Translations under genes and position numbers: made by a program | Source of the DNA: Rhodococcus sp. P1Y | Lineage (GTDB): Bacteria > Actinomycetota > Actinomycetes > Mycobacteriales > Mycobacteriaceae | Assembly (NCBI RefSeq): GCF_003641205.1 | Contig: NZ_CP032762.1 | Span: 682,001-746,000 of the forward strand | Direction of reading: 5' to 3' | DNA length: 64,000 nt | Part shown: positions 12,105-64,000 of the stretch, piece after piece | Layout of the letters: each line of letters opens with the position of its first letter | Position numbering within the stretch: position 1 is the first letter of the stretch | The notes under the pieces: generated by a model | Databases searched by the model: none | What the model was told of the DNA's origin: nothing | The model's input: only the letters and a program-made list of their open reading frames with translations

Positions 12105-12137
12105 GCTTTCGGCTTTCGGGGCTTTCGGGGCTTTCGG
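12105..12137 (+). repeat. Short tandem GCTTTCGGG repeats
   Basis: Three to four copies of GCTTTCGG(GG) run directly into the 30-bp repeat array that follows. They look like slippage-derived repeats in an intergenic region. Confidence 0.6.
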
Positions 12138-12252
12138 GTGAACGAATGTCTGTTTCGGTCTCCTCAGGTGAGCGAATGACTGTTTCGGTCACTCAGAGTG
12201 TGCGACTGTCTCATTCGGTCTCCTCAGGTGAGCGAATGTCTGTTTCGGTCAC
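12138..12252. repeat. Array of four ~25-bp palindromic units at 30-bp period (array 1)
   Basis: Units start at 12138, 12168, 12198 and 12228, exactly 30 bp apart. Each has arms of the form GTGAGCGAA and TTCGGTCAC around a 7-bp centre, with a 5-bp linker. The arms are inverted repeats of each other, so each unit can form a hairpin or be a dimer-binding site. The array sits upstream of the GNAT gene (12310). Array 2 (13916-14123) carries the same unit in the opposite orientation upstream of the facing gene. Confidence 0.85.
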
Positions 12253-12309
12253 CTCCGAACCCCTGTTATTCACTCGCATAGCGAACGAATCAGTTGCACA
12301 CTGCTGGAC

Positions 12310-12858
12310 ATGCTTCCGACGCCACCCGAGAGAATCGAACTCGACCATCTCGTCATCCGACGCGAAACGACCGACGATGCGCAGGCCATCGCCGACGCAA
12401 TCAGCTCGAACATTTTCCGGCTAGCTCCGTGGATGGAATGGGCCGTCGACGACGCCGCAGACGTCGATACACAGAGGATTCGGATCGCGGACACCAACGC
12501 CCAATGGAATTCCGGCAGCGTGTACGACTACATCATCGTCGATGCACCGGGCAGCAAAGTCTTGGGAAAGATCGGGCTGCATCGGACGGCCCCAGACGTT
12601 CTGGAAATTGGATACTGGCTGACCGGAGCCGCCGAAGGCCGCGGAATAGCTACCAGAGCCAGTTCTGCCCTGACCATGGTCGCAGCCGGTATGGCCGACA
12701 TAGTTCGAGTCGAAATCCATTGCGATGCAGCTAATCTACGCAGCCAGGCGATACCCGAACGATTGGGGTATCGCCTGGACCGCATCGACGACCATCCCGT
12801 CACGACGTCACATCAGACAGGTCGGCAGATGATCTGGATCTACGACGCAGCTCGATAA
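12310..12858 (+). CDS. GNAT-family N-acetyltransferase (RimJ/RimL-like)
   Basis: 182 residues. The RimJ/RimL-type GNAT fold is recognised from LVIRRETTDDAQAIADAI at the N terminus, an LEIGYWLTGAAEGRGIATRA acetyl-CoA pyrophosphate-binding loop (about residues 97-116), and IVRVEIHCDAANLRSQAIPERLGY near the C terminus. Such enzymes acetylate protein N-termini, antibiotics or polyamines; the substrate cannot be told here. The gene follows repeat array 1 and converges with the AbiEi-like gene, overlapping it tail to tail by 19 bp. Confidence 0.85.
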   Translation: MLPTPPERIELDHLVIRRETTDDAQAIADAISSNIFRLAPWMEWAVDDAADVDTQRIRIADTNAQWNSGSVYDYIIVDAPGSKVLGKIGLHRTAPDVLEIGYWLTGAAEGRGIATRASSALTMVAAGMADIVRVEIHCDAANLRSQAIPERLGYRLDRIDDHPVTTSHQTGRQMIWIYDAAR

Positions 12859-13847
12859 CGAGTCCCTTGCAGCACGGCGACGATGTTGGGCCGCGGTCGT
12901 TCCTGCGCCCTTCGATAGGCCGTCAGCACATCCGCAGCCACTCGTTCTGGTTCTTCTGCGATCATTTTCGGCGTGTGCGACGTGACGACCACGCCATGGC
13001 CCTCGGCGTTGGCCCTCCGCTTGATTGTCTTTTCGTAATCGGCTGGGCTCGCATGATGCAGGTACGAGTCGGTCTCACACGCGCAGGCCACGTCGTCGAA
13101 CCATCTGTCCGTCGTCATGATGAACTCGCCCGACTCCGTGTACAAGTCGACGTTGGCGACGCTGGGCGGCAGACCGCTCCGTTCGAACAACTTCTCTGCA
13201 TCAACCTCAGCGACCGAATGTGCACCGCCCATAAGTTCCAAAAGGGCACGTCTAGGGACTGCACTGCCTCGACCACAGCCCTCGTTCAGTTCGACGAGCA
13301 GCGACTGGACGTCGACGGCGCCTCGCTGAACGACCTCGGCGAAAAGGGCTACGCATGCCCTCCGATCGCGCACCCGGCGAGAGGCGTCGAGCAAGGATCG
13401 ATCGAGCGGAGCCACCGGTAGACCCATCTTGGTCGTCGACTCCGGCATCCTCTCGGTCCGTTCGGTGACGACGAACGACACATCCTTGCGGTGCCGTTCC
13501 GGCGGAATCAACACCAATACGTCGGCTGACGTCTTCGCCGTACCGAACCCGTGGAGCGCGAGACCTGCCCGTCCACTGAGCATCGAACCGTCGCCGCCGT
13601 ACATGCTCGCGGCAGTGTTCCGCTGCTGTTGGGACGGCTGGCCGTTGTGTAGCAATACGAGCCCGGGCAGTATCCGTTGCCACGGTCCGCCCGATGTCCT
13701 GTCTACGATCGTCTTCGCTCCCACCCCCATCGCTTTCAGTACGGACGTTCTGATGACACCGTTCTTGGACTTCTGGCGCAGCGCGTAATCGTCGTCTGCC
13801 CATCCCCCTCGTTTCATGGCCGACATCGAATACGACGGGTCCGACAT
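12840..13847 (-). CDS. AbiEi-like / DUF559-type protein (orphan)
   Basis: About 335 residues from the chosen ATG at 13847; further ATGs at 13826 and 13817 are possible and no ribosome-binding site settles it. The N-terminal part (VLKAMGVGAKTIVDRTSGGPWQRILPGLVLLHNGQP) resembles the winged-helix N domain of AbiEi-type antitoxins. The middle (LSGRAGLALHGF, PLDRSLLDASR) is the conserved core of that actinobacterial family. The C terminus (ITPD-like EFIMTTDRWFDDVACACETDS) recalls the DUF559 endonuclease-like fold. No AbiEii nucleotidyltransferase toxin is adjacent, so it is an orphan member. Two DnaA-box-like sites and palindromic array 2 lie immediately upstream. Family assignment is by pattern only. 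Confidence 0.6.
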   Translation of the reverse strand: MSDPSYSMSAMKRGGWADDDYALRQKSKNGVIRTSVLKAMGVGAKTIVDRTSGGPWQRILPGLVLLHNGQPSQQQRNTAASMYGGDGSMLSGRAGLALHGFGTAKTSADVLVLIPPERHRKDVSFVVTERTERMPESTTKMGLPVAPLDRSLLDASRRVRDRRACVALFAEVVQRGAVDVQSLLVELNEGCGRGSAVPRRALLELMGGAHSVAEVDAEKLFERSGLPPSVANVDLYTESGEFIMTTDRWFDDVACACETDSYLHHASPADYEKTIKRRANAEGHGVVVTSHTPKMIAEEPERVAADVLTAYRRAQERPRPNIVAVLQGTRYRAAS

Positions 13848-13871
13848 TTTCGGCCGTCCGAACTGGGGGCC

Positions 13872-13899
13872 TGTGGACAACTTCGTAGACTGTGGATAA
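13872..13899 (-). other. Pair of perfect DnaA boxes
   Basis: TGTGGACAA (13872-13880) and TGTGGATAA (13891-13899) are the reverse complements of TTGTCCACA and TTATCCACA, 10 bp apart and in the same orientation. They lie 25 bp upstream of the AbiEi-like start and next to array 2. Confidence 0.6.
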
Positions 13900-13915
13900 C
13901 TTTCGGTCGATGGAG

Positions 13916-14123
13916 GTGACTGAATGAGACATTCGCTCACGTTCGAGGTGACCGAATGAGACATTCGCTGACGCTCGGGTGACCGAAAGAGTCGTTCGCA
14001 CACTCAGAGTGACCGAAAGAGTCGTTCGCTCACCCCCCGAGACCGAAAGAGTCGTTCGCTCACCTCCCGAGACCCAAACAGACATTCGCTCACCCCCCGA
14101 GACCGAAACAGTCATTCGGTCCG
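13916..14123. repeat. Array of seven ~25-bp palindromic units at 30-32 bp period (array 2)
   Basis: Units begin at 13916, 13948, 13979, 14009, 14039, 14069 and 14099. The consensus arms are GTGACCGAA and TTCGCTCAC, the reverse complement of array 1. The last three units begin GAGACC in place of GTGACC and the final one ends TTCGGTCCG, so the array decays towards the desaturase gene. The spacing keeps successive units on one face of the helix. Four of the five linkers between units 3-7 are variants of CC(C/T)CC plus one or two bases. Confidence 0.85.
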
Positions 14124-27263: not shown

Positions 27264-27307
27264 AGTGGCACGGTTAAGCGCCCGCTGGGGCACTTGACCG
27301 TGCCACT
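27264..27307. terminator. Stem-loop terminator (15-bp arms, one mismatch)
   Basis: AGTGGCACGGTTAAG (27264-27278) pairs with CTTGACCGTGCCACT (27293-27307), with a 14-nt loop, just after the phosphatase stop. Confidence 0.75.
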
Positions 27308-31692: not shown

Positions 31693-31861
31693 GGTGACCT
31701 CACTGCTATAGCGGACTTCGACTTCGCAGGCGAGAATTCCACGCCTCGATGTCGAATTGATGCCCAATCGGTAAACGGAGGTTACCTAAAGTTGTGAAGT
31801 CTCACATGCTGGAACGAGAACGAGGTTTTTGCGCGGGGAAACGTGCGTGTGGCCCGGTGAT

Positions 31862-31995
31862 CGCTTGAATGGTCCATTCATACGATCGGATAGCTACCGA
31901 GGACCATTCAAGCGGGCAGAATGCGGACGACCCACCGCTCGAATGGTCCATCCATACGATCAGATGACTACGAAAGACCATTCAAGCGGTGGGTC
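31862..31995. repeat. Double-hairpin repeat, copy 1 (downstream of gltD)
   Basis: Two tandem stem-loops. The first has 14-bp perfect arms CGCTTGAATGGTCC (31862-31875) and GGACCATTCAAGCG (31901-31914). The second has 20-bp arms (31929-31948 and 31976-31995, one mismatch). They are joined by a GGGCAGAATGCGGACGA linker. The gltD stop lies 15 bp away, so the hairpins may also end the gltBD transcript. A copy in the same orientation lies upstream of gltB. Confidence 0.85.
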
Positions 31996-38113: not shown

Positions 38114-38437
38114 CGGCTATCTTGGGTGCCGTTCGCCGTTGAAGCAGCACCCCCGAAAACGATCTTCGGCTAACGTCGAGCGGGTGGGCTCGTTCGCAGC
38201 GCTCAAGCGTCTAGCGGGCGGATTCGGCATCGGGTACGCCGGTCCAACCACAAACGATAAATCAGCACCATGCCCACCACGCAACTAAGGTATCCCTATC
38301 TAGCCTTCTGACCAGGGCATTCGTGTTTGTCCGTCGATCCATAGACACGTCTCCGACGCGTGCAACGCGAGCGCCTCGAACCCCGATCACGCGTGGATAC
38401 CCCTCACCGTCATCCCTGGGTACGCCGCTCCGACGAT

Positions 38438-38564
38438 CGCTTGAATGGTCCATTCATATGATCTGACAGCTGGCACGTCCCATTCAAGCGGGCAAAATGC
38501 GGACGACCCATCGCTTGAATGGTCCATTCATACGATCAGATAGCTACGGAAGACCATTCAAGCG
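38438..38564. repeat. Double-hairpin repeat, copy 2 (upstream of gltB)
   Basis: The same two-hairpin plan as 31862-31995 and in the same orientation. Arms are CGCTTGAATGG (38438-38448) with CCATTCAAGCG (38480-38490), and CGCTTGAATGGTC (38512-38524) with its complement (38552-38564). The linker GGGCAAAATGCGGACGA differs from copy 1 by one base. Copies 1 and 2 enclose gltBD. Confidence 0.85.
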
Positions 38565-63360: not shown

Positions 63361-64000
63361 TCAGGAGGCGAGTTCGGCGCGGGCGGCTTCGCGGGCGAGG
63401 AGACGATCGCGTGATTCTTCGAACTTCGACGCCTTGGCGGACAGCTCTTCGACGAACACTGCGAGTCGGTCGCGGTCTTTTTCTCCCGCTGTTGAGAAGT
63501 CGTCGCGGTCGAAAATTCGCCAGTGGCGAAGGACCGGGAGCAGAACTTCGTCCAGGTGCTGACGGAGATCGTAGATGCCGTGTTTGGCCAGCGCCATCGC
63601 GTTCTTGCGGAAGTTCGGCATGTTGAGTCCGGGCATCGCGAAGTCGGTGGCCACGTCGGCGATCGCCCTGACCATCTGGTCGGGCGTGAGGTCCAGCGCC
63701 GCCGAGCCGAGGTTGCGGTAGAAGATCATGTGCAGGTTCTCGTCCGCGGCGATCCGCGCGAGCATGCGGTCGGCGATCTCGTCACCACACGCAAGTCCGG
63801 TGTTGCGGTGTGACACTCTCGTGGCCAGTTCCTGCAGCGTCACGTATGCAACAGAGTGCAGGAAGTTCGCGCCGTCCATAGGGGCGTCGACACCGGTGGT
63901 CATGTGCTGCATGCGGGCGCGTTCGAGCTCTACGGGATCGACAGCACGCGTGACGACGAGATAGTCCCTCATCACGATTCCGTGGCGGTTTTCCTCGGCC
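63361..64000 (-). CDS. Acyl-ACP desaturase, DesA-type di-iron enzyme (N-terminal part missing)
   Basis: About 212 residues are visible; the gene continues off the right edge. It enters with AEENRHG, the first EENRHG di-iron box, then has the second iron-binding segment DEIADRMLARIAADENLHMIFY (E..DENLH). The soluble stearoyl-ACP-desaturase family of mycobacteria (DesA1/DesA2) matches. DesA2-like enzymes can lack full activity, and the missing N terminus prevents judging all ligands. The C-terminal helix is rich in Ala/Arg/Glu. Confidence 0.85.
   Translation of the reverse strand, partial: AEENRHGIVMRDYLVVTRAVDPVELERARMQHMTTGVDAPMDGANFLHSVAYVTLQELATRVSHRNTGLACGDEIADRMLARIAADENLHMIFYRNLGSAALDLTPDQMVRAIADVATDFAMPGLNMPNFRKNAMALAKHGIYDLRQHLDEVLLPVLRHWRIFDRDDFSTAGEKDRDRLAVFVEELSAKASKFEESRDRLLAREAARAELAS

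Follow-up and report, generated by a model that had tools for sequence, protein, structure and literature searches.

REP/RAYT systems, in which repetitive extragenic palindromes (REPs) accompany a REP-associated tyrosine transposase (RAYT), are described as a gene bracketed by its own inverted palindrome, with a separate palindrome family for each gene, dispersal in intergenic clusters and mosaics, and a gene unit that apparently does not transpose (PMC2817692, PMC6006769). Here we describe a comparable arrangement in Rhodococcus sp. P1Y, in a stretch of 64,000 nucleotides (the window, positions 682001-746000 of a 5.87-Mb single-contig genome). Two inverted arrays of a 25-bp palindrome at window positions 12138-14123 enclose a GNAT acetyltransferase gene and a gene, called ABI below, whose product is predicted to combine an AbiEi fold with an EDxHD/Vsr homing-endonuclease-like fold. 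The layout and the link between gene and palindrome are well supported, and ABI and its repeat family look like a so far undescribed enzyme-repeat partnership. The first-pass annotation of this DNA could name no known system with such a layout, a statement that REP/RAYT contradicts.

Two further systems are related to ABI through its predicted folds. The type IV toxin-antitoxin proteins AbiEi and Rv2827c bind inverted repeats located in the promoters of their own genes (PMC7319586), and the EDxHD homing endonuclease I-Bth0305I forms a dimer on a target site nearly 60 bp long (PMC3943268). In searches of the open-licence PMC literature, no title or abstract listed linked AbiEi/DUF559 proteins to dispersed palindromes or described the repeat reported here.

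Results

Inverted palindromes bracket the ABI gene

Both arrays are built from the palindrome GTGASCGAA-N7-TTCGSTCAC (type A), and array 2 is the reverse complement of array 1, with inverted matches of 135, 118 and 87 nt at 74, 77 and 82% complementarity. Unit coordinates and complementarity thus bear out the earlier description of two inverted arrays (four and seven units) of one ~25-bp palindrome at a ~30-bp period. The likening of this period to three helical turns holds approximately, the period being about 30 bp, but 30 bp amounts to 2.9 turns of B-DNA, not exactly 3, and the steps in array 2 run from 30 to 32 bp. Array 1 lies upstream of GNAT, with a PNPOx gene pointing towards it from the other side, and array 2 lies upstream of both ABI and a desaturase gene that points away from it.

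To score bracketing, the 600 bp on either side of the gene, or of the GNAT-ABI pair, were compared for their best inverted match. The 52 loci of the genus with strong ABI matches were scored in two rounds, and 51 of them are bracketed by inverted palindrome copies at E<=1e-3, which ties the palindromes to the AbiEi-like gene as first proposed. All 34 loci of the first round reached E<=7e-7; the second, comprising the remaining 18 and four loci from other genera, gave 21/22 at 1e-3 and 19/22 at 1e-6, its sole miss being an ABI gene fragment in genome G034. Among the 20 best loci from other genera, 18 were bracketed at 1e-3 and 15 at 1e-6 (L181 and L182 failed), making 22 of the 24 other-genus loci scored, from 64 rows found. 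Pooled, 73/76 ABI loci were bracketed at 1e-3 versus 17/557 controls. The controls, taken from 400 kb of genome G010, comprised single genes (7/320 at 1e-3, 1/320 at 1e-6) and adjacent gene pairs (10/237 at 1e-3, 0/237 at 1e-6); the lone control gene at 1e-6 is methyltransferase-like and flanked by copies resembling the palindrome of another family member (L210 type, see below). As ABI loci share descent, the bracketed loci are not independent events.

Each clade and paralog has its own palindrome

Clades and paralogs differ in their bracketing sequence, and the core type follows the ABI tree with 7 changes versus 17.5 in shuffles, the labels having been assigned after the motifs had been viewed and 10/53 rows carrying neither motif. 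Type A was found at <=2 mismatches in 16/37 genomes of the genus, with at least nine matches on one strand in 11 and a single match in five. Nine of the 11 repeat-rich genomes carry ABI at >=59% identity; G034 has the fragment only, G031 has none, and the gene is absent from the rest of the 37. All nine ABI genomes have units at <=4 mismatches flanking the GNAT-ABI pair on each side, including at least one unit upstream of GNAT in 8/8 of the other ABI genomes (G007 has just one there, at 4 mismatches). The cores of the units are species-specific among the nine, and the arms are altered in G004 and G026. At the corresponding locus of G031, which lacks ABI, there is no type A unit. GNAT is incomplete in G007, where ABI and the repeats are retained, so GNAT is probably not essential.

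A sister clade of 14 genomes carries the GNAT-ABI pair with an ABI identity of 47-49%. The PNPOx gene adjoins the pair in the 13 genomes with long enough loci, and these 13 loci contain no type A repeat; the pair is flanked instead by a different inverted palindrome, A'. This palindrome is dispersed in exactly those 14 genomes (16-30 matches; <=1 elsewhere; reversed control 0-2). The same pair occupies the same place with different palindromes, and therefore the pair appears to have stayed while the palindrome changed, which speaks against the earlier idea that REP-like elements had captured two genes. The same observation makes a composite mobile element, in which the palindromes would be terminal repeats carrying a captured GNAT and ABI, extremely improbable despite a layout like that of terminal inverted repeats; moreover, ABI alone is bracketed where no GNAT was found beside it, and neither an empty site nor a moved one was observed. 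In the sister-clade genome G015, 12/17 listed A' places are no more than 150 kb from ABI, a number that includes its two brackets; 3/16 examined places (the 17th being left out) coincide with arrays of the P1Y genome, of which two are the ABI flanks.

The paralog ABI-2, at position 533959 of the P1Y genome, has a third repeat, C, as its bracket. Ten genomes contain dispersed copies of C (16-44 matches; <=3 elsewhere; control 0), and each of them carries an ABI-2-like gene that is itself bracketed. Types A, A' and C are thus dispersed in genomes of the genus with the cognate gene, with few exceptions. For one other genus, 11/11 genomes asked contain dispersed copies of the palindrome that belongs to the ABI of that genus (8-52 matches, control 0). 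Two pairs of C repeats also occur within the window, at 31860-31988 and 38436-38564, ~75 bp apart in each pair and ~180 kb from ABI-2.

Type A palindromes are dispersed over the chromosome

A degenerate 25-mer search at <=3 mismatches gave 151 forward and 148 reverse matches genome-wide, with palindromes partly scored on both strands, and the same pattern read backwards gave 0 and 0. A covariance model built on 65 units yielded 180 matches at E<=0.5, some scored on both strands, and there are at least 44 clusters among the matches listed. Because the unit is dispersed over the chromosome, the finding extends well beyond positions 12138-14123. The first-pass annotation had treated scatter without a link to the genes as evidence against its proposal: the unit is scattered genome-wide, but the link to the gene holds. 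A suspected depletion of arrays near mid-chromosome was weakened by further clusters at 2.80 and 2.87 Mb found by the covariance model.

By a crude gene caller, 0/43 clusters lie inside genes. Gaps between convergent genes hold 17/43 clusters (16 with array 2 corrected) versus 24/114 sampled gaps, and gaps between divergent genes 3/43 (4 corrected) versus 38/114; the caller had placed array 2 as convergent when its true class is divergent, the 114 baseline gaps are a hand-picked sample, and two crude callers are partly discordant (convergent 20/36 versus 17/43). Type A arrays are therefore mostly away from divergent promoters, a pattern that does not resemble an ordinary regulon. At seven clusters (L013, L014, L019, L023, L034, L036 and L038), type A palindromes stand 107-130 bp apart around a motif B (GTTGCAAC..CTGGAAC), which resembles the palindrome bracketing another paralog (L148/L212); that palindrome occurs at five places in P1Y loci besides its parent locus. 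These clusters seem to be mosaics of palindromes apparently belonging to two different genes and resemble the mosaics of REP systems known as bacterial interspersed mosaic elements (BIMEs). Some joints between units are palindromic as well, for example TTTCGGTCACTCAGAGTGAGCGAA in L034.

Dispersal between genes, and more commonly between convergent ones, is what would be expected of ordinary REP-like repeats or bidirectional terminators that came to lie beside the gene by chance. We consider this highly improbable in view of the excess of bracketing at ABI loci over controls, the different palindromes of different paralogs, and the co-occurrence of each palindrome with its cognate gene.

Units change together within a genome

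Of 12 clusters examined against G010, eight were comparable and seven had units at the same place. Against G006, 13/26 array places lie between the same two genes, both ABI flanks included, with different cores in G006, and 13/26 examined clusters are not shared; this count omits one unshared cluster at the edge of L101 and about ten further listed cluster loci. Units at the same place in the two species were 7.16 differences apart, units at different places 7.06 and units within a species 5.04, and the nearest outside unit belonged to the same species for 142/152 units. Since units within a species are closer and same-place pairs are no closer than others, the units change together across a genome.

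ABI is a predicted fusion of AbiEi-like and homing-endonuclease-like folds

The ABI protein had no matches in Pfam and NCBIfam, and a sequence-profile search for a solved structure found none. A predicted model combined with fold matching assigns it an AbiEi-like part and a homing-endonuclease/Vsr-like part (Table 1), and PADLOC AbiEi models match residues 17-175. The earlier AbiEi-type assignment is thereby upheld, and the EDxHD/Vsr-like domain, which it had missed, is added. E204, D237, E248 and H255 are near-invariant among 50 ABI homologs.

Residues 5-196 share the predicted fold of AbiEi and Rv2827c. Unlike these proteins, ABI has an additional nuclease-like domain, and its palindromes lie on both sides of the gene and are dispersed; unlike AbiE systems, no AbiEii-type nucleotidyltransferase toxin was found among the scanned neighbours of ABI (GNAT, PNPOx and desaturase). 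Residues 201-306 share the predicted fold of I-Bth0305I and Vsr, and the target described for I-Bth0305I, nearly 60 bp, is similar in length to the elements seen here (about 51-60 bp). In contrast to those enzymes, the domain in ABI is joined to an AbiEi-like part, and the palindromes that bracket it exist in multiple copies; cutting by it is putative.

An AbiEi-type domain joined to an endonuclease-like domain might also be read as a defence or toxin-antitoxin-like module acting against phage or foreign DNA, with the palindromes regulating ABI or marking self DNA. This appears improbable, given the lack of AbiEii among the scanned neighbours, the chromosomal setting of the GNAT-ABI pair, which two clades share, and the incomplete GNAT of one genome.

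Table 1. Features of the ABI locus, in window coordinates
Feature	Position	Strand	Description
Array 1	12138..12252	+	Four 25-bp palindromes, 30-bp period; unit starts 12138, 12168, 12198, 12228 (steps 30, 30, 30); between PNPOx and GNAT
GNAT acetyltransferase	12310..12858	+	182 residues, PF13302; convergent with ABI
ABI, predicted AbiEi-EDxHD fusion gene	12840..13817	-	325 residues, ATG at 13817; start set by MKRG conservation
Homing-endonuclease/Vsr-like domain, residues 201-306	12900..13217	-	Predicted model and fold match
AbiEi-like fold, residues 5-196	13230..13805	-	Predicted model and fold match
TTGTCCACA box	13872..13880	-	63 bp upstream of the ABI start codon
TTATCCACA box	13891..13899	-	82 bp upstream of the ABI start codon
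Array 2	13916..14123	-	Seven palindromes, inverted relative to array 1; unit starts 13916, 13948, 13979, 14009, 14039, 14069, 14099 (steps 32, 31, 30, 30, 30, 30); between ABI start and desaturase

Boxes of the form TTRTCCACA, which we take to be the DnaA-box consensus, precede the gene. At least one box (<=1 mismatch) lies <=110 bp upstream of the start at 51/53 ABI loci versus 6/321 control genes. Two boxes are present at 33 of the 53, mostly 18-20 bp apart and ~60-90 bp upstream, and in a later set a box was found at 20/22 loci with a wider window.

Two further observations concern array 1 and the window. The sequence GGCTTTCGG stands in three copies directly ahead of array 1 (window 12111-12138). 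An Rfam scan at gathering scores found no known RNA family in the arrays, its two matches in the window being a tRNA and ASdes; the latter, listed as a tuberculosis (TB) small RNA, lies at 63926-63993.

The wider AbiEi/DUF559-like family

A search profile built from ten diverse members gave 15 substantial matches in the P1Y genome, including ABI and ABI-2; of the 15, two have an internal stop and one is partial. Two weak matches were obtained in addition. Under a rule-bound test within 640 bp, 10/15, including ABI and ABI-2, were bracketed at 1e-3; the misses were L209, for which a bracket is seen over a longer span, L215, L216, L220 (a partial gene) and L221. L215 and L216 are two adjacent AbiEi-like genes at 2234015-2236095 of this genome.

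Distant family members match Pfam AbiEi_4 and DUF559. Six such AbiEi/DUF559-like genes, intended as negative controls, reached a best E of 1.4e-4 with crude open reading frame ends, one of them clearly wrong; without fixed ends, a comparison adopted after seeing the data, related palindromes lie on both sides in 6/6, inverted in five and direct in L151. A hand-picked sample covering 382 kb of the genome contained the L209-type palindrome at 8-9 places, C at 3, the L210 type at 2 and the other types at none, with no match for reversed queries. One L210-type palindrome lies in the window at 27264-27307, and the gene bracketed by this type is AbiEi/DUF559-like, at 190 kb in the genome.

Discussion

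Like the REP/RAYT units called REPtrons, the ABI locus has inverted copies of its palindrome on each side of the gene and further, dispersed copies of that palindrome (seen for A, A', C and one type from another genus), which are intergenic as determined for type A. It differs in its enzyme, a predicted AbiEi-EDxHD fusion in place of a Y1 HUH transposase. The Y1 transposase model PF01797 has no match in this genome, while control genomes give matches, and the fold predicted for ABI is unrelated; for these reasons the ABI system is not a member of REP/RAYT. The sampled Actinobacteridae are described as carrying only subclass 1.1, the insertion-sequence-type Y1 class (PMC6006769).

The bracketing, dispersal, co-occurrence, predicted fold, conserved residues, boxes and array places shared by species-specific units were computed directly, and from these we infer binding, cutting, copying and spread, and control by DnaA. 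We somewhat favour a REPtron-like system run by the AbiEi-homing-endonuclease fusion acting on its own palindrome. ABI would recognise this palindrome, inverted copies of which bracket its gene while others are intergenic and mostly away from divergent promoters, and would nick or cut at paired units spanning ~50-60 bp. Repair from another copy might then spread palindromes over long times and keep the copies within a genome alike, and under this proposal enzyme and palindrome would therefore change together. The bracketing copies may autoregulate the ABI gene, and the TTRTCCACA boxes may tie its expression to DnaA.

Several observations weigh against this proposal. The repeats look old and not mobile, with seven of the eight comparable clusters kept in G010, and the listed A' places of the sister-clade genomes G014 and G015 correspond by eye. 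Palindromes also persist without an intact enzyme. G010 keeps 72 and 61 matches though both of its ABI genes (L133, G010:4554811-4557455, and L095) are broken, ABI-1 by a frameshift near residue 213 and ABI-2 by a split near residue 218, where a putative insertion with IstA/IstB-like frames lies; G031 retains dispersed A copies without the cognate gene, and G044, from the other genus, has the palindrome although a search at 1e-15 found no ABI there. Across a set of more distant homologs, E204 and D250 are invariant and D237 nearly so, while E248 and H255 are not kept. The 382-kb sample contains no copy of seven of the paralog brackets (L211-L214, L217-L219), although type A also gave none there, so the sample can miss dispersed families and says little. 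The longest multi-unit block shared between arrays is 56 bp versus null maxima of 41-60 in five rounds; because block sharing does not exceed the null, copying and selection on binding sites are not told apart by it. Insertion into terminator loops or pre-existing inverted repeats is not supported, the 14 bp outside 45 clusters being no more complementary than shuffled pairs (4.82 versus 4.89, p 0.62).

The main rival is a fixed network of binding sites, in which ABI would be an autoregulator and a chromosome- or transcription-related binder, the palindromes would be selected sites, and the nuclease-like domain would act on cruciforms or be a structural remnant. Selection on fixed sites could also yield species-specific units. 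The conservation of array places between species and the clustering of A' places near the gene in G015 are consistent with this explanation, as is the promoter binding described for AbiEi and Rv2827c. On the other hand, the brackets occupy both sides of the gene and not the promoter side alone, few clusters lie at divergent promoters, the endonuclease-like fold has conserved acidic residues, and well over 100 units would need to change in step. Taken together, we regard a fixed network as rather unlikely.

A REPtron-like role of ABI could apply more broadly. We tentatively suggest that a superfamily of AbiEi-homing-endonuclease proteins, each the caretaker of its own palindrome, may be present in Rhodococcus and genera related to it, and perhaps throughout the Actinobacteria, and that in this superfamily cutting timed to replication through the DnaA-type boxes, followed by repair, would rewrite all copies jointly, constituting a REP-type system independent of HUH transposases. 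The same logic of gene and palindrome with an unrelated enzyme would make the acquisition and upkeep of short-palindrome families testable in a second, independent system. It also suggests a function to look for in proteins now called hypothetical or matching only AbiEi_4/DUF559, and might explain why Rhodococcus genomes contain families of intergenic hairpins.
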